Source of the DNA: Polynucleobacter meluiroseus
GTDB taxonomy: Bacteria; Pseudomonadota; Gammaproteobacteria; Burkholderiales; Burkholderiaceae
Assembly: GCA_945881875.1 (NCBI GenBank)
Contig: CAMCVH010000002.1
Coordinates: 124,001-188,000 of the forward strand
Reading direction: 5' to 3'
DNA length: 64,000 nucleotides
Within the stretch, counting starts at the first letter, position 1; each line of letters opens with the position of its first letter. The notes beneath the pieces are model-generated. The model was not told the origin of the DNA and did no database searches. It saw only the letters and a program-made list of their open reading frames with translations. Shown one piece after another: positions 9,146 through 17,944 of this stretch. The position numbers and the translations under genes were made by a program.

Positions 9146-11722
9146 TTAACCCATAGTTGCTTGAACTCGTTGACGAATATAAGCGAGTGCTTCATCTACT
9201 TGATCTATAAGTATCAAGCAAATATCGCCCGCCTGAACTTGTTCAAGAGCCTTATCAATCGCCAGAAACTCGCCTCTAAACTCTTCAATCTTTTTAACTT
9301 TTTTAGAATTGGTGAGTCCACCGCGCATGATGGCAGTTATTTCTCCATCAGGTCTACCACGCTGACATTGATCTTCATACAAAATGACATGATCAAATGA
9401 CTGCCCTAAGATTTCTGTCTGACGTCTTAAATCTTCATCGCGCCGATCGCCTGCGCCACTGATAACAGCTATTCTTTTTTTAGCAGGCATGCCGCTAATA
9501 GTTTCGGAAAGAGCAAGGATGGCGTCAGGATTATGGCCATAGTCGGCGATGATCGTAGCGCCAGCATGTTTAAAAATATTAAATCGACCCGGCACAGTAT
9601 TTGAGTCACTCTCAAAGCTATTTAATCCATCTGCAATGACAGTCCATGGGATATTCAGCGCCCATGCAGCACCTACAACCCCAAGAACATTTTCAACTTG
9701 GAAGCCGATAGTGCCCTCAGCGGTCATTGGAACTTGATCAAGATTGATATGGAATTCTTTTTTACCTTCAGAAGCAATCACTTTGTTATCTTTTACAAAT
9801 ATGACACGCTTACCTTGGGCACGATGCTTAGCCATAATGGGGTGATTAACATCTCTTGCAAAAAACGTTACATCACCAGGACAGGTTTTTGCCATCTTCA
9901 CCACATTTGCATCTGCTGCATTAAGAACTGCCATACCGTCAGGTGCAACGTTTTGAACAATGACCCGTTTTACAGCAGCAAGATCGGCTGTGGTGTTGAT
10001 GTAGTTCATACCTAAGTGATCGCCTACGCCAATATTCGTGACAATGGCAACTTGGCATCGATCAAACCCTAGACCTTCTCTGAGGATTCCACCGCGGGCT
10101 GTTTCTAGAACCGCTGCATCAACATCGGGGTGCATCAATACATTACGAGCGCTCTTAGGTCCGCTGCAATCACCTGTATCAATTCTCTTACCACTGATAT
10201 AAACACCATCAGTACCAGTATGACCCACTCTCAAACCATTTTTTTCAAACAAATGACTCATGAGTTTGACGGTTGTGGTTTTTCCGTTAGTGCCAGTTAC
10301 AGCTACAACTGGAATACGCCCATCATCATCTTTACCAAACATAGTAGAAATAATGGCTTCACCAACAGGGCGGCCTTTGCCATATGACGGATGTAAATGC
10401 ATTCTGAGGCCGGGTGCCGCATTAACTTCAACAATACCGCCACCTTGTTCTTCAAGAGGGCGGTAGACGTTATCGCAAACCACATCAACGCCGCAAATAT
10501 CTAAACCGATCATTTGCGCTGCTGAAATAGCAGAAGCTGCTAGATCAGGGTGCACATCATCTGTCACATCAGTGGCAGTGCCACCAGTGCTTAAGTTGGC
10601 GTTATTTCTGAGGGTCACTCTAAGACCTTTAGCCGGAATAGAGTCTAACGTTAAGTTTTGATTTTTAAGTGTTGCAAGTGCTATTTCATCAATTTTGATT
10701 TTACTGAGCGGGGTTGCATGACCGTCACCTCGATTGGGATCTTTGTTGATTTCTTCAACTAATTGGCCAACAGTATGTTTGGCATCACCAATGACATATG
10801 GAGGTTCTCTTCTTGCTGCAGCTATTAATTGGTTACCAATAACCAATAAGCGGTGATCATGACCAGGCATATAGCGTTCAACAATCACATCTGAAGAAAT
10901 CTTAGATGCGGCATTAAAAGCAATGTCAATTTGCTCTCGGGTATTAATGTTGACAGCGACACCTTTGCCTTGATTGCCATCTCTTGGTTTAATTGCAACG
11001 GAAGTATTAATTTTTTTAAAAGCTTCCCAAGCTTCGTCAGCCGTTCTAACAATACTTCCAATGGGGACTGAAACACCAGCTGCATGAAGTAAATTTTTTG
11101 TGAGTTCTTTGTCTTGTGCGATGGACTCAGCAATAGCGCTGGTAGAGCTTGTTTCAGCTGCTTGTATGCGGCGCTGTTTACTTCCCCAACCAAATTGAAC
11201 CATGCTACCTTCGGTTAAGCGACGGTAAGGTATGCCTCGAGCAACAGCTGCGTCAACAATTGATCCTGTGCTTGGTCCTAGGCGAATGCTTTCATCTAAG
11301 TCACGGAGTTGCTGTAAGTACTCTTCAACGTGAGATCCATTATCAATGAGGGCTGATCGGCAAAGCTTCATGGCTAACTCTAGCGCTAGGCGACCAACTT
11401 TTTCTTCTGTGTATTCAACCACAACGATATAAACACCATCATCTGGAGTCGACATTGTTCTACTAAAAGTAATAGGGCAACCCGCTTGAGCCTGTAAGTC
11501 TCTTGAGCAAACTTCAAGAGCGTGAGCTAGAGATACTGTTTCATTTTGACCATAAGGCCTAACTGGACCAAGCTGTGGGAATCTTGATCTTAAGCGTGTT
11601 TCAAATCCGAAAATGTTAGTGATGACTTTTTCGCTCTCTTCGCATTTAACTAATGCCTCTAGAGCTGTGTGCTTACCCCACAAATTAGGTCCTCTTAGAG
11701 CGCGGATGCGGGTTAGTTCCAT
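9146..11722 (-). CDS. cphA: Cyanophycin synthetase
   Basis: This enzyme makes the nitrogen reserve polymer cyanophycin by adding Asp and then Arg to a growing chain with ATP. The 858 residues are full length: an N-terminal domain (1-160), an ATP-grasp domain (about 200-460; VAIKPRDGNQGKGVAV and VEVNAAPGLRMHLHPSYG) and a Mur-ligase-like domain with P-loop GTNGKTTT (477-484), ETARGGIL (540-547) and a complete C-terminal lid region (VPGRFNIFKHAGATIIADYGHNPDA). In the N-terminal domain the EHxxLELQ stretch of CphA' is replaced by HALEVCSRDLQ. It lies 7 bp downstream of cphA' in one transcript. Confidence 0.95.
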   Translation of the reverse strand: MELTRIRALRGPNLWGKHTALEALVKCEESEKVITNIFGFETRLRSRFPQLGPVRPYGQNETVSLAHALEVCSRDLQAQAGCPITFSRTMSTPDDGVYIVVVEYTEEKVGRLALELAMKLCRSALIDNGSHVEEYLQQLRDLDESIRLGPSTGSIVDAAVARGIPYRRLTEGSMVQFGWGSKQRRIQAAETSSTSAIAESIAQDKELTKNLLHAAGVSVPIGSIVRTADEAWEAFKKINTSVAIKPRDGNQGKGVAVNINTREQIDIAFNAASKISSDVIVERYMPGHDHRLLVIGNQLIAAARREPPYVIGDAKHTVGQLVEEINKDPNRGDGHATPLSKIKIDEIALATLKNQNLTLDSIPAKGLRVTLRNNANLSTGGTATDVTDDVHPDLAASAISAAQMIGLDICGVDVVCDNVYRPLEEQGGGIVEVNAAPGLRMHLHPSYGKGRPVGEAIISTMFGKDDDGRIPVVAVTGTNGKTTTVKLMSHLFEKNGLRVGHTGTDGVYISGKRIDTGDCSGPKSARNVLMHPDVDAAVLETARGGILREGLGFDRCQVAIVTNIGVGDHLGMNYINTTADLAAVKRVIVQNVAPDGMAVLNAADANVVKMAKTCPGDVTFFARDVNHPIMAKHRAQGKRVIFVKDNKVIASEGKKEFHINLDQVPMTAEGTIGFQVENVLGVVGAAWALNIPWTVIADGLNSFESDSNTVPGRFNIFKHAGATIIADYGHNPDAILALSETISGMPAKKRIAVISGAGDRRDEDLRRQTEILGQSFDHVILYEDQCQRGRPDGEITAIMRGGLTNSKKVKKIEEFRGEFLAIDKALEQVQAGDICLILIDQVDEALAYIRQRVQATMG

Positions 11723-11729
11723 ATATTCT

Positions 11730-13880
11730 CTAATTAAAGGTTTGAAGACCAGCGACGATGATATCTTTAGGAGAGTTCAATGCCCACACTGCGCCTACTG
11801 CAGCCAAAACATTCTCTAGTGCATTTGTTTTGTTGCTCGACTGAAGAAGCGGAATATTACTTAGATCAATTAAAGTTTGTCGATCTTTGCCCTGCGCAAG
11901 AATGATTTGATTGTTTTCTGTGAACAGTGCACGCCCACCATTTTTTAAATGGTTTTGGGTTGCGTCATTCAAGCCATACCGACTAAATAAAATAACTTCA
12001 CCATCAGACAGCTCTGCCATTTTGACAACAGCTTCATCATCAGCATTTAAAACAGCAGCTCCCGTTGGCAGAATCACGTCAACTTGTGTACGCATGACGT
12101 TATAAATTTGTTCAGGCTCAGTAATGGAGCATTCAGGAGCAACATCGTCAAGGTCAAGGTTGGTCACAATACCTACGCTACATCTATCGTAAGCAAGTCC
12201 TTCATTCAAAATAGTGTGATTGTCATTTTCAATAACAGCTGCTTCAACTTGACGATTCAACAGCAAGCGATTGGCACTGATCCAATTAGCGCAGTTACCT
12301 GAAGTTTGAAGGCGCTGATTAAAGTAAGCACCTTTGCTGCAAGCTAAGCCAACTTTCACGCCGGTCAGTTGAATGAGGTGGCTAACAAGTTGTGCAACCA
12401 TTGTTTTTCCACGGGAGCCAGCTACACCAACTATTGGAATTCGACCATTAGCTTGATTAGGGAACAAGTGTTCAATAATGGCAGAGCCAACGGGTTGGGG
12501 CTCACCTACGGCAGGCTTTAAGTGCATGATTAGGCCAGGCCCTGCATTGACCTCCACAATGGCACCACCTTGTTCTTCAAGCGGCCTGGAAATATCTTCG
12601 GCAACTATATCGACACCTGCAATATCTAAACCTATCACTCGTGCAGCTAATGCTGCTTGAGCCGCAACGTCAGGATGGACTAAGTGGGTTACTTCAAAAG
12701 CCATATTGCCAGAACCTTGAACTAAAACGTCTTGATCTTTTCTTGGTATTGAATCCAATGTCAATTTTTGACGTGCTAATTCAAGCTCAAGCTTTTTATC
12801 AAATACGACAGGGCTTAAGGGAAGTATTTCAGCATCACCTCGGCGAGGGTCCGTATTAATTTCTTCTTCGATTAATTGGCGAATATTTCTGATGCCATCA
12901 CCTTTAGCCCATGCTGACTCGCCTTTTGCAGCAGCCACAACTTTTTTACCTACCACTAACAGGCGGTGCTCATTACCCGGTATGAAGCGCTCGACCATCA
13001 CGCCACTGCCTTCTTCAAGAGCATCTTCAAATGCTTTTTCAATTTCACTTTGATTGCTTAAATTAGTAAAAACACCGCGAGCATGATTGCCGTCATAGGG
13101 TTTTACAACCACTGGTAGACCAATATCTTTCGCAGCTTCCCATGCATCCGCTGGACTTTCAACCATGCGACCTTCAGGAACTGGAACGCCACAAGAGGCT
13201 AATAATGATTTTGTTAAATCTTTATCTCTAGAGATACCTTCTGCGATAGCACTGGTTAATTCTGTTTCGGCTGTCCAAATACGTCTTTGTTGATTGCCGT
13301 AACCTAACTGAACCAAATTACCTTCTGAAAGACGCGTTGCTGGAATTTTTCTTTCTCTAGCAGCATCAACAATACAGCCAGTACTTGGGCCTAAATATAG
13401 GCTATCGACTAAATCTTCTATTTGTTTAATAGCTGCAGGGACATTAAACGTTTTGTTCTCTATGGCAGCCATGACTAAGTCACGAGCTAAATAAAGTGCT
13501 GTTTTAGTGATTTCTTCATGCCATGCACGAACAACTACTTTATAGACGCCACGTTTATTGGTTTCTCGAGCTTTACCAAATCCACCAGGCATACCGGCTA
13601 AATTCTGTAGTTCAAGGGTAATGTGCTCAAGGATATGGGCTGGCCAGGTACCCTCTTCAAGGCGCTTAATGAATCCACCGCGTTCACCGTAGCTGCAGCG
13701 GTGTTCAATTAAGCTTGGTAACCATGCGACTAAGCGGTCTGTGAATCCTGGGATGGTATTAGACGGACAATCTTCCAAATCGCCAATATCGACCCAGGCC
13801 TCTAAGACAGGGCTGTAGGTCCACATGCTGGGCCCTTTAAGGACCTTGATATCTATGATTTCTATTGTTTTTTTTGTCAT
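11730..13880 (-). CDS. cphA': Second, shorter cyanophycin synthetase CphA'
   Basis: 716 residues from ATG 13880; a TTG at 13898 with a weak AGGT upstream is the alternative. Domains: N-terminal domain with HILEHITLELQNLAGM (82-97), an ATP-grasp domain (about 220-460; VVVKPYDGNHARGV, IVEVNAGPGLIMHLKP) and a Mur-like core. The Mur core has a changed P-loop, GSRGKT (488-493), and ENDNHTIL (551-558) where CphA has ETARGGIL. The protein stops just after the Mur core, so the C-terminal lid is absent. Paired cphA'/cphA genes are known in Ralstonia-type bacteria, so this is a defined paralogue rather than a broken gene. Its Mur half is probably not a normal ligase (inference). Confidence 0.9.
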   Translation of the reverse strand: MTKKTIEIIDIKVLKGPSMWTYSPVLEAWVDIGDLEDCPSNTIPGFTDRLVAWLPSLIEHRCSYGERGGFIKRLEEGTWPAHILEHITLELQNLAGMPGGFGKARETNKRGVYKVVVRAWHEEITKTALYLARDLVMAAIENKTFNVPAAIKQIEDLVDSLYLGPSTGCIVDAARERKIPATRLSEGNLVQLGYGNQQRRIWTAETELTSAIAEGISRDKDLTKSLLASCGVPVPEGRMVESPADAWEAAKDIGLPVVVKPYDGNHARGVFTNLSNQSEIEKAFEDALEEGSGVMVERFIPGNEHRLLVVGKKVVAAAKGESAWAKGDGIRNIRQLIEEEINTDPRRGDAEILPLSPVVFDKKLELELARQKLTLDSIPRKDQDVLVQGSGNMAFEVTHLVHPDVAAQAALAARVIGLDIAGVDIVAEDISRPLEEQGGAIVEVNAGPGLIMHLKPAVGEPQPVGSAIIEHLFPNQANGRIPIVGVAGSRGKTMVAQLVSHLIQLTGVKVGLACSKGAYFNQRLQTSGNCANWISANRLLLNRQVEAAVIENDNHTILNEGLAYDRCSVGIVTNLDLDDVAPECSITEPEQIYNVMRTQVDVILPTGAAVLNADDEAVVKMAELSDGEVILFSRYGLNDATQNHLKNGGRALFTENNQIILAQGKDRQTLIDLSNIPLLQSSNKTNALENVLAAVGAVWALNSPKDIIVAGLQTFN

Positions 13881-14023: not shown

Positions 14024-16321
14024 TTGATAAATACCGACCCCAAACAACTGAACCGCCTGCCAAGTCATTGGCAAAATGCTCTCCCTCTTAAGGAGGGGGC
14101 TGGCGATGCGATGATCGCTTTCATAGAATTAGATTTAAATGGCGACCTTGAGTTTGAAAAAGGTTTAATTTATCTGACCGATCAGGGCTTGTATGCCTAT
14201 AAAAAGCATAATTTACCTAAATCTGACTCCTCTTCAAATTGGGAGCATTGGGCTTTTTCACAAGATCATCATTTAAAACTTCAAGATCACGCGGGTGTAG
14301 CAAGTTTAGAGTTGGTGAGTGAGAAGGGGCGCTTAGCGTCTTGGCGATTTACCTTAGCGCAAAATCCAGCTGCTAATCGACTCGTTCAGCAATACAACAT
14401 AGAAAAAAATAGATTTTTAGGTTTACATGACTCAAGTAAAGATTTAGTTGGGCAAACGGTTTGTCCTACTTGTTGGGTGCCACTGCCACCTGATCAAGAG
14501 GAGTGCCCGGCTTGTACTTCAGAGAATCTTGCGCCGCCATCCACATGGACCCTATTTCGTTTATGGAGATTTGCTAAACCTTACAGAGCTCAGTTATTAG
14601 CGGGATTTTTATTAACGCTAGCTTCCACCGCTGCAACCTTGGTACCGCCTTATTTAACGATGCCAATCATGGATGACATTTTGTTACCTTACCAAAGTGG
14701 GCAAGCGATTGATCAGCAACTCACCATTTTTTATTTAACAGCTTTATTTTTTGCTGCTTTATTGGCTTGGGGTTTGGGTTGGGCTAAGACATACATATTG
14801 GCGTTAGTCAGCGAGAGGATCGGCGCTGATTTAAGAACAAAAACATACGAGCACTTAATGAGATTGTCATTGGAGTATTTTGGTGGCAAAAGAACTGGCG
14901 ATTTAATGGCTAGGATTGGTTCTGAATCTGATCGTATTTGCTTGTTCTTATCAATGCATCTTTTAGATTTTGCGACCGATGTTCTGATGATCTTAATGAC
15001 AGCTATCATATTAGTCACTATTGATCCTTGGTTGGCTTTAGTGACTCTGACGCCATTACCTTTTATTGGTTGGGCTATTCATGTGGTGCGCGACAAACTA
15101 CGATTTGGATTTGAAAAGATTGATCGAACTTGGTCTGAAGTAACAAGTGTCTTAGCTGATACGATTCCAGGTATACGTGTGGTTAAAGCATTCGCTCAAG
15201 AGGAGCGTGAGACAGATCGATTCCGCTTAGCTAATCAACATAACCTAGCAGTCAATGATCGCGTTAATAGAGTTTGGGCTTTGTTTTCACCGACGATTAC
15301 TTTGTTAACTGAAATCGGCCTACTAGTTGTTTGGGCTTTTGGTATTTGGCAGATTTTACATGACGCTATTACTGTTGGCATGCTGACTGCCTGTTTAGCT
15401 TACATCGGGCGTTTTTATACTCGCCTAGATTCAATGAGTCGTATCGTCTCATTTACTCAGCAAGCCGCCACTGCCTCCAAGCGTATTTTTGACATTTTGG
15501 ATCATGTGTCCAGCGTTCCCGATCCAGCACAACCTGTCAAGCTTACTAATGTAAAGGGACGTATTGATGTACAAAACGTGGGCTTTCGGTATGGCAATCG
15601 TTCAGTTACAAAAGGTATTAATCTTGCGATAGCACCTGGTGAGATGATTGGTTTGGTGGGCCATAGCGGCTCTGGCAAGAGTACGCTTGTAAATTTGATT
15701 TGCCGTTTTTATGATGCTGCTGAAGGCACTATCAAGCTTGATGGTGTGGATATCCGCTCTATTGCAGTTGCTGATTACAGACGTCATATTGGACTTGTTC
15801 TACAAGAGCCATTTTTATTCTTCGGCACGATTGCCGAGAATATTGCCTATGGTAAGCCTCATTCAACTCGAGAAGAAATTATCTCTGCAGCAAGAGCTGC
15901 ACATGCTCATGAGTTTATTCTGCGTTTACCGCATGGATACGATTCGTTAGTAGGTGAGCGTGGACAATCACTTTCTGGCGGTGAGCGTCAGCGTATTTCA
16001 ATTGCAAGAGCTCTATTAATAGATCCTCAAATTCTAATTTTGGATGAAGCCACATCTTCAGTCGATAGCACTACTGAAAAAGAGATTCAAAAAGCTTTGG
16101 ATAATCTTGTAAAAGGCAGAACTACTATAGCGATAGCCCATCGGCTATCAACCCTTCGTAAAGCTGATCGCTTGATTGTTTTAGATAAAGGGCAGATCGT
16201 GGAAGAGGGAAGTCATGATCGGTTGATGGAGTTGCAAGGTGTCTATCGTAGGATGTATGATTCTCAGGCAAGACAAGCTATGGACGTAGTTGATGAAGAA
16301 CTAGGAGTACAGCGTGATTAA
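14024..16321 (+). CDS. Cyanophycin-associated ABC exporter (fused membrane and ATPase domains)
   Basis: 765 residues from a TTG start; no in-frame ATG exists before residue 29, and no clear Shine-Dalgarno is visible. Order: a unique N-terminal domain (about 1-140), a CxxC...CxxC zinc ribbon (VCPTCW and ECPACT, about 146-166), a six-helix type-1 exporter membrane domain (about 185-480) and an ATPase domain with GHSGSGKSTL, LSGGERQRISIARALL, ILILDEATSSVD and the H-loop IAHRLSTL. All ATPase motifs are intact. Proteins of this build next to cphA are catalogued as a cyanophycin-metabolism-associated ABC transporter (recalled); the cargo is unknown. It is coupled to the next gene by an 8-bp overlap. 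Confidence 0.88.
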   Translation: MINTDPKQLNRLPSHWQNALPLKEGAGDAMIAFIELDLNGDLEFEKGLIYLTDQGLYAYKKHNLPKSDSSSNWEHWAFSQDHHLKLQDHAGVASLELVSEKGRLASWRFTLAQNPAANRLVQQYNIEKNRFLGLHDSSKDLVGQTVCPTCWVPLPPDQEECPACTSENLAPPSTWTLFRLWRFAKPYRAQLLAGFLLTLASTAATLVPPYLTMPIMDDILLPYQSGQAIDQQLTIFYLTALFFAALLAWGLGWAKTYILALVSERIGADLRTKTYEHLMRLSLEYFGGKRTGDLMARIGSESDRICLFLSMHLLDFATDVLMILMTAIILVTIDPWLALVTLTPLPFIGWAIHVVRDKLRFGFEKIDRTWSEVTSVLADTIPGIRVVKAFAQEERETDRFRLANQHNLAVNDRVNRVWALFSPTITLLTEIGLLVVWAFGIWQILHDAITVGMLTACLAYIGRFYTRLDSMSRIVSFTQQAATASKRIFDILDHVSSVPDPAQPVKLTNVKGRIDVQNVGFRYGNRSVTKGINLAIAPGEMIGLVGHSGSGKSTLVNLICRFYDAAEGTIKLDGVDIRSIAVADYRRHIGLVLQEPFLFFGTIAENIAYGKPHSTREEIISAARAAHAHEFILRLPHGYDSLVGERGQSLSGGERQRISIARALLIDPQILILDEATSSVDSTTEKEIQKALDNLVKGRTTIAIAHRLSTLRKADRLIVLDKGQIVEEGSHDRLMELQGVYRRMYDSQARQAMDVVDEELGVQRD

Positions 16322-16790
16322 CTTAACTGTTTCGTTCGCCTTATCAAGAAATTCATTTGGACATCTTTGCCTGACAGATCAATCTGGACAGCTGCATGAG
16401 CATGTATTTCCAGTTCGATCATTTCCCATAAGCTCCCCTCATGAATTCATCGCCATTGTTGATCGTGATGGTCATGAACTGGTTTGGTTAGATCAACTTG
16501 ATCAAACAAGTCCAGAGAATCAGGTATTAATTAATGCTGAATTCGCTACCAGGGAATTCATGCCCGTTTTAACTGAGATCAAGTCGGTATCTTCTTTTAC
16601 AACCCCCAGCACCTGGCGGGTTGAGACTAGTCGTGGATCAACTGAGTTCACCTTGCGTGGTGAAGAAAATATCAGGCGAATTAATCCTACAACTTATTTG
16701 ATCGCTGATGCTCACGGTGTTCAATATCTGATTGAGGATATCAAAGCTTTAGATAAGCACACTCGCCGTTTATTAGATCGTTTTTTATAG
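16314..16790 (+). CDS. DUF1854 protein associated with cyanophycin metabolism
   Basis: 158 residues from a GTG start inside the end of the ABC gene; AGGAG lies at 16303-16307. It has no signal peptide or membrane segment. The conserved features visible are DRDGHELVWLDQLD, the central beta-rich TWRVETSRGSTEFTLRGEENIRR and the tail YLIEDIKALDKHTRRLLDRFL, which fit the DUF1854 family. The family is repeatedly found beside this type of ABC transporter in cph loci, but its molecular role is unknown. The overlap with the exporter gene suggests the two proteins are made in step and may form a complex. Confidence 0.82.
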   Translation: MINLTVSFALSRNSFGHLCLTDQSGQLHEHVFPVRSFPISSPHEFIAIVDRDGHELVWLDQLDQTSPENQVLINAEFATREFMPVLTEIKSVSSFTTPSTWRVETSRGSTEFTLRGEENIRRINPTTYLIADAHGVQYLIEDIKALDKHTRRLLDRFL

Positions 16791-16798
16791 GATTTAAT

Positions 16799-17944
16799 AT
16801 GAGCGAGAATCAACAAAAAATCTTTTTTGAAACTCGCGGAATTGAGTTTTGTTTATCAAATAAAAGTGATAAAGAAAATATAGTTACCCAAGTAATGAGC
16901 TATTTTAAGTTGCATGGTTTGGAAAATGCCATCAACCTAAGGGAAGCCACTCAAGACTCCTCTCTAGTTATCGCTTTTAGCCTCAAAGAAGATTATCAGG
17001 GTCAGTGGGCCCCTAACTGGGACACCACACAACTTTGTGAGATTCTTTCATTAAAGGGTTATAAAGAAAAAAATGATCTTAATAAAGAGATATTGGTGGG
17101 TATGTTACTCGCACCGATTCCTTTTCAATTTCCAAATTATGACGAGTTTCATTCCGCTATCCAGATAAGGCACCATACGGTTAATGCTGGCTACTTGGCC
17201 GCATTAAATTTTGATACGAGTGCAACAGAGCGTCCAGAAGACTACTGGCATTACGATGAGGATGCTGGTTTCTTACTCAAGCAAGGCCAATCAATCATCG
17301 ATGCCTTGATTAAGGCGACTCAACCAGAGAGCATGGAGAATGCTTATTCTTTCTCGTGTTATCGAGCAACAGAATATGTTATTTTGTTAGCGATTGCTCG
17401 TAAATTAAACAAGGTTAATCCTGAGCTATTAAAAAGTCTCGAGTCGCGCTCGCAAAAGAAAGCAATCCGCTCAGGTGAGTTCCATGAGGTTTTCTTAAAA
17501 GAGTATGGTTCTATAGAGCAACCACTACCAATGAAGTATTACGTGCCTGGCGATCGAGTATGGTTCCGCAATCCAGATAGCCGCTCTTCAGATATCCCTG
17601 GTTATGAAGGCTCATGGGTCATTTATTTGGGTAATAACTTATTTACTAACTTTTGGAAAAGAGATCAACCTTTTACCTTAGAGACTAAATGTGTGGAGAT
17701 CTACCATTGGAAAGATGGTGCGTACCTTGATGATAGTAGTGAGCTTCTAATGAATGAAAATGTTGTTGAGGCTTGCGTTGCTAAAACCCTAGCTGAACCA
17801 AAAGAATTTGAAAAGATTCTTCAGCGCATGATGAGATATCGTGATCCTAAAGGCGTATATGACCAAGGCGGTTGCATTGACACCTCAAGAGAATCACCTC
17901 GATTGGTTTGCCCTGGCACGAGTGACATCAAAATCTCACATTAA
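16799..17944 (+). CDS. Putative Tgl-like (spore transglutaminase fold) protein
   Basis: 381 residues, start ATG with TAGGA 7 bases upstream, 8 bp after the DUF1854 gene, so it is the third gene of the exporter unit. I do not recognise a named family member with certainty. The part from residue 160 to 290 resembles, from memory, Bacillus Tgl: NAYSFSCYRATEYVILLAIA (181-200; candidate nucleophile Cys187) and PGDRVWFRNPD (250-260) followed by YEGSWVIYLGNNLFTNFW (269-286). The expected His position appears to be Asn284 and the acidic position is displaced to Glu270, so activity may differ. The first 110 residues match nothing I know. No signal peptide. Confidence 0.5.
   Translation: MSENQQKIFFETRGIEFCLSNKSDKENIVTQVMSYFKLHGLENAINLREATQDSSLVIAFSLKEDYQGQWAPNWDTTQLCEILSLKGYKEKNDLNKEILVGMLLAPIPFQFPNYDEFHSAIQIRHHTVNAGYLAALNFDTSATERPEDYWHYDEDAGFLLKQGQSIIDALIKATQPESMENAYSFSCYRATEYVILLAIARKLNKVNPELLKSLESRSQKKAIRSGEFHEVFLKEYGSIEQPLPMKYYVPGDRVWFRNPDSRSSDIPGYEGSWVIYLGNNLFTNFWKRDQPFTLETKCVEIYHWKDGAYLDDSSELLMNENVVEACVAKTLAEPKEFEKILQRMMRYRDPKGVYDQGGCIDTSRESPRLVCPGTSDIKISH

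Follow-up and report, generated by a model that had tools for sequence, protein, structure and literature searches.

We suggest that the two adjoining cyanophycin synthetase-like genes of a 64,000-nucleotide stretch of Polynucleobacter meluiroseus DNA (the window) encode a polymer-cutting and a polymer-building enzyme. From its residues, CphA' is probably a dedicated endo-cyanophycinase that cuts the polymer of its neighbor CphA into primers, and the pair would descend from a duplicated trifunctional synthetase whose copies lost different sites. We consider this the most likely explanation because the hydrolase site is found in one of the two proteins and missing from the other throughout the family, the tree traces the pair to one duplication, two M-domain polymer-contact positions are fixed in CphA', and the site is kept in lone CphAs.

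The cphA' and cphA reading frames are intact and lie head to tail, 7 bp apart (Table 1), and their products match solved CphA1 structures along the whole length (best E-values of 2e-136 for CphA' and 3e-188 for CphA). The nearest named loci to the pair are those of Polynucleobacter. CphA is located downstream of CphA' in 79 of the 80 named CphA' loci, the remaining locus being at a contig end, and the two genes run in the same direction with an estimated gap of ≤100 nt in 72/78 loci. A gene similar to that of the ABC protein is present in 77/80 and a DUF1854-like gene in 72/80 of the relatives' loci. The window also encodes a 381-aa protein (16799-17944) with a weak likeness to PRK03187 (E 5e-10, below the cut-off), and a similar gene occurs in just 7/80 loci. 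The AlphaFold model of CphA' (mean pLDDT 74, <50 for the first 35 residues) was too weak for use.

Table 1 Features of the cphA'-cphA locus, in window coordinates; residue equivalences are in SuCphA1 numbering.
Feature	Position	Strand	Description
CphA'	11730..13880	-	716-aa pseudo-synthetase: N-domain hydrolase site intact, G domain altered, M core degenerate, Mur lid absent
CphA' hydrolase site	13611..13703	-	H60, C62, R73, H82, E85, H86, E90 (HxCx19HxxEHxxxE)
CphA' N392	12705..12707	-	Equals SuCphA1 N394, retained; CphA1 loop residues S396-G399 after N394 deleted
CphA' M-domain P-loop	12402..12419	-	Degenerate, GSRGKT
CphA	9146..11722	-	858-aa cyanophycin synthetase; R323, N394, S396, R458, M active site and Mur lid retained; H267Q; N-domain hydrolase site degenerate
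CphA N-domain helix	11492..11524	-	HALEVCSRDLQ, degenerate (H83 replaced by V; H57 and C59 deleted upstream)
Exporter-type ABC protein	14024..16321	+	Divergent gene; NCBIfam NF052233, cyanophycin metabolism-associated
DUF1854 protein	16314..16790	+	NCBIfam NF052234, cyanophycin metabolism-associated

Loci beyond the 80 named ones came from samples of the order (399 genomes), the class (369) and the phylum (398). In these surveys two candidates per genome were scored, and 'two matches' therefore means at least two; in a separate set of 15 genomes, every candidate was scored. A motif-less CphA next to a motif-bearing CphA' was verified in 111 genomes, 108 of which are in the order sample (24 families, 50 genera). 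We read 25 further genomes, 17 of which have CphA' only partly on the fetched stretch, while no CphA' was recognized on the fetched stretch in five (G005, G051, G158, G287 and G383); the other three are G358 without CphA', G030 with CphA' alone, and G928 with a one-gene form described below. In G358 (87% complete), CphA has a transposase gene in the position of CphA'. Upstream of this CphA, a 719-aa reading frame (L278:3190-5349) encodes both a DDE transposase and a DruA (Druantia) domain. Some loci are common to both genome collections, and the counts were redone after thinning. Reading frames shorter than 600 aa were dropped from the pattern count, and those truncated by a locus end or not reaching the N domain were dropped from the identity calculation and the aligned sets; the pattern count and the site table also cover loci L089-L168, which lie outside the aligned sets of 188 CphA' and 193 CphA. 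Each list of 120 database proteins used below holds the best matches out of 8000 scored (for one list, 7999 were reported).

The N domain of SuCphA1 is a metal hydrolase, its metal tentatively assigned as zinc, which cuts cyanophycin at a low rate into primers, mainly (beta-Asp-Arg)4; the metal ligands are C59, H79 and H83, E82 acts as the base, and H57 and E87 have a supporting role (PMC9262961; this and the other papers are cited from excerpts). The initial annotation had noticed that CphA' keeps HILEHITLELQ (residues 82-92) where CphA has HALEVCSRDLQ (67-77), and both segments are found exactly there. It had also considered that the EHxxLELQ residues might lie away from any active site, but in the metallopeptidase-like N-domain site the stretch belongs to the active-site helix, which carries H79, E82, H83 and E87 (PMC9262961). 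The window CphA' has the full motif, metal-site cysteine included, whereas in CphA one deletion spans H57 and C59 and H83 is lost as well. Judged by its residues, CphA' would be a CphA1 N-domain hydrolase (Cx19HxxEH together with H57, R70 and E87), and its proposed part as carrier of the primer-making site is borne out to the extent that all metal, base and supporting residues of SuCphA1 are matched.

This split is family-wide and far above chance. With exact duplicates removed, the motif was found by pattern in 189/189 CphA' vs 1/212 CphA, the sole motif-bearing CphA being that of the one-gene module (L159/L281). Among database proteins (best 120 of 8000 scored for each list), the motif is present in 117/120 CphA', the three misses being N-terminally cut sequences, vs 0/120 CphA. 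When the sequences were thinned to 80% identity, all 100 CphA' retained the motif and all 86 CphA lacked C59. Residues H57, C59, F67, R70, H79, E82, H83 and E87 are jointly kept in 81/81 aligned CphA', and all 188 have an unbroken cutting site. The polymer contact E90 (SuCphA1 numbering), however, is kept in 0/81 CphA'.

The building sites show the opposite distribution. Besides the aspartate-site residues R323, N394, S396 and R458, the window CphA has the M-site residues N497, K499, D585 and H586 and the lid. The four aspartate-site residues are kept in 193/193 CphA, and all eight in 181/181 CphA after thinning at 98%. The score of CphA for the TIGR02068 equivalog (969.6 bits) is over the cut-off of 850. 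These data agree with the initial view of CphA as the polymer maker, as far as conserved residues can tell. CphA deviates from cyanophycin synthetase 1 at one defining residue, H267, which is Q in the window protein and in 191/193 CphA; E215 is absent from the window CphA and from 193/193. H267 is critical in cyanobacterial CphA1, and the E215A change removed most of the activity of TeCphA1 and about half of that of SuCphA1 (PMC9427784). We rejected the idea that H267Q decisively shows the G domain of CphA to be inactive: among the relatives of the L281 protein (best 120 of 8000), residue 267 is Q in 86, H in 33 and K in 1, and since these relatives, whose other sites are intact, mostly have Q, the substitution alone does not necessarily imply an inactive G domain. 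E215 is present in 24/120 of the same relatives and in 16/29 lone CphAs.

In contrast to CphA, the window CphA' lacks R323, R458 and loop 396-399 of the aspartate site as well as the M-domain P-loop and the lid, while N394 is retained. R323, R458 and loop residues 396-398 are absent in 188/188 aligned CphA'. As already seen in the initial annotation, CphA' has GSRGKT for the GTNGKT and ENDNHTIL for the ETARGGIL of CphA, and it ends before the Mur lid. Its TIGR02068 score (748.9 bits) is under the cut-off of 850; CphA' scores 1032.1 bits (cut-off 877) for the NCBIfam subfamily NF010623 'cyanophycin synthetase', a homology subfamily whose score does not probe the synthetase sites. The M site and lid are together absent in 153/188 CphA', including the window protein, and together present in 35/188, two of which have only about half a lid; this presence or absence changed at least six times on the tree. 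The identities by domain (6000 sampled pairs from 186 loci) are 0.68 for N, 0.69 for G and 0.49 for the M core in CphA', and 0.62, 0.72 and 0.69, respectively, in CphA, which fits a loss of the building sites in CphA' and of the cutting site in CphA. The lost aspartate-site residues led us to discard the idea of CphA' as another complete synthetase, and the lid-less open frames with an invariant cutting site, which occur in 153/188, led us to discard that of a truncated pseudogene.

The degenerate M core of CphA' may have a role of its own. In SuCphA1, S603 and E607 of the M domain hold the polymer at the N-domain site (PMC9262961). If the M core of CphA' is kept for cutting, positions 603 and 607 are expected to be constant even where the M catalytic site has changed. 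Position 603 is R and 607 is D in 188/188 CphA', and the two are among just seven invariant positions of the 238 in the M core of the 153 lid-less CphA', for which the chance is 42/(238x237)=0.0007. The same seven positions are invariant in 93 rows thinned to 80%. Both letters differ from those of SuCphA1 and agree with the motif-bearing L281 relatives (best 120 of 8000), which have R603 in 118/120 and D607 in 84 or E607 in 36. The fit is less neat elsewhere: the 29 lone CphAs have R603 in 15, D607 in 10 and E607 in 14, and the 193 CphA have R603 in 162 and Q607 in 115, E607 in 67 and D607 in none.

The cutting site is kept in 29/29 typical lone CphAs, nine with Cx19 and 20 with Cx21 spacing. 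This count omits the split fragments L126/L127 and four motif-less, divergent proteins, L106 and L125 (under the family cut-off), L128 (matched at 439 bits), and L279, which is additional to the pair in its genome. L279 (genome G056) lies ~4 kb from a cyanophycinase gene. Eight lone-CphA genomes of the order (L129-L135 and L138, genera g46 and g65) encode, close to CphA, a separate Mur-ligase-like protein and also a cyanophycinase. In the Magnetococcales MAG of L281, the module consists of DUF1854, ABC and a single CphA in the position of the pair, and in this CphA the cutting site, the M site and the residues of the aspartate site are all intact. We found no second CphA in that genome, whose contig ends inside the gene and whose assembly is 8% contaminated, and no other CphA among 48 genomes searched in the class of G928. 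All three sites are intact in 120/120 relatives of the L281 protein (best 120 of 8000). In a G-domain tree of 86 rows, a quick tree with some long branches, CphA and CphA' (27 rows each) form single clades with SH-aLRT values of 97 and 93, respectively. Together with L159, which sits at the base of CphA, they form one clade (SH-aLRT 98), and the lone CphAs fall outside. By this tree, CphA and CphA' are sister clades from one duplication.

From these results, we propose a duplication of one trifunctional cyanophycin synthetase, after which different sites were lost from the two copies. CphA would be a primer-dependent synthetase that builds the polymer, and CphA' would cut some of it in trans into short primers, as N+G-M- SuCphA1 did for TmCphA1, its M core having presumably been retained as one wall of the cutting site. 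In that experiment, TmCphA1 no longer depends on primer when either a SuCphA1 inactive in both G and M or just the N domain is supplied in trans (PMC9262961), and by analogy the pair is most likely a natural version of it. TmCphA1 shows that a motif-less CphA is functional once a primer is supplied, and a hydrolase carried by the partner protomer is somewhat less effective than one on the same chain in heterodimers of SuCphA1 (PMC9262961). The earlier claim that both proteins would be needed holds as far as the co-occurrence of the pair goes; the partner may not be strictly needed, because enzymes such as TmCphA1, which lack the N site, were proposed to use left-over strands (PMC9262961). Both copies are evenly expressed in Accumulibacter (PMC10687191). 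Points against the proposal are that no cyanophycin was observed in wild-type Ralstonia eutropha, which has two homologues (PMC11362209), and that G358 has CphA without CphA'.

CphA' might also mobilize the polymer, to judge from its intact cutting site. Cyanophycinase is already known to be rare in beta-proteobacteria, being present in 2.8% of 903 with CphA1 (PMC10206079). In the order sample, cyanophycinase (TIGR02069) is over the cut-off in 10/132 genomes with at least two CphA matches (outside genus g46; 108 of them verified by sequence), or in 13/132 if any match at 1e-15 is counted, vs 11/11 lone-CphA genomes; these 11 come from only two families, so the contrast reflects few independent events. 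TIGR02069 has no match anywhere in the window's genome at E 0.01, CphA' included, and neither Asparaginase_2/IaaA (PF01112) nor IadA (TIGR01975) has one at E 0.001. A tentative extension is that CphA' is the missing beta-proteobacterial cyanophycinase, both priming and mobilizing, in which case the CphA'-CphA-ABC-DUF1854 module might be a self-contained make-and-cut (possibly export) unit replacing cphB. We find it rather unlikely that CphA' is chiefly a depolymerase that mobilizes stored polymer, with priming as a by-product. The scarcity of cyanophycinase keeps this idea alive, since CphA' is the sole recognized cyanophycin-cutting candidate in the window's genome, but the few independent events behind the lone-CphA contrast, the position of cphA' directly upstream of the synthetase gene with its short gap, and the slow N-domain activity with its preference for tetramers (PMC9262961) argue against it.

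CphA' may do more than cut, because the equivalents of the G-domain ATP-site residues K220, K261, H267, R309, E450 and N452 are all kept in 183/188 CphA'; K220, K261, R309, E450 and N452 are kept in both window proteins. This conservation, and the fact that Gcore is the dimer interface in TeCphA1 (PMC9427784), would suit a regulatory or structural hetero-oligomer partner that uses its ATP site for something besides aspartate addition. We regard such a partner as improbable, given that the ATP site is broken in 5/188 CphA' (L255, L272, L276, L277 and L280), and H267 also in the CphA' of L109 and L111, outside the 188, while the cutting site is intact throughout. The CphA' of L277, L280, L109 and L111 have decayed G-domain residues. 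That CphA' trims primers and also performs one amidation step, as initially suggested, is very improbable: 26/81 CphA' (Achromobacter, Bordetella, Cupriavidus, Ralstonia, Pandoraea and L066, a MAG named to phylum only) have an intact M site and lid, with which they may be able to add arginine, but the window CphA' has neither, and R323, R458 and loop 396-398 are gone from the whole aligned set.

If the proposed role of CphA' as a primer-making cutter is true, it accounts for two adjoining synthetase genes, rare cyanophycinase and one broken-looking copy in beta-proteobacteria, and the laboratory trick of supplying the N domain in trans would be a natural, widespread system, with 108 verified genomes from 24 families in one order sample. 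It also suggests co-expressing both genes for cyanophycin production with beta-proteobacterial enzymes.

The tandem cphA genes of R. eutropha and other non-cyanobacteria are the same kind of gene pair, and neighboring cphA copies were already noted by Fueser and Steinbuechel 2007 (as cited in PMC10687191). In excerpts of open-licence PMC papers, we found no link between the tandem pair and the N-domain primer site. The ABC and DUF1854 families had already been named cyanophycin metabolism-associated (NCBIfam), and in the L281 module both accompany a single gene. Structures 8fxh and 7ta5, which we take to be CphA2, are matched over a span as long as that of CphA1, so that, by span lengths only, the loop deletion of CphA' is seemingly not shared with CphA2. 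CphA2 resembles CphA' as a CphA1 relative with a reduced reaction set but lacks the N-domain motif (PMC9262961), and we therefore rejected CphA' as a CphA2-like enzyme (cyanophycin synthetase 2). The primer-dependent TmCphA1 is, like the window CphA, a synthetase without the N-domain motif; the excerpts of PMC9262961 mention no CphA'-like partner for it, whereas the window CphA has an adjoining one. With the N-domain hydrolase of SuCphA1, CphA' shares every metal, base and supporting residue and the spacing HxCx19HxxEHxxxE. Unlike in SuCphA1, the site is on a separate product that lost residues of the aspartate site (and, in the window, the M site), adjoining a synthetase that has no hydrolase site.
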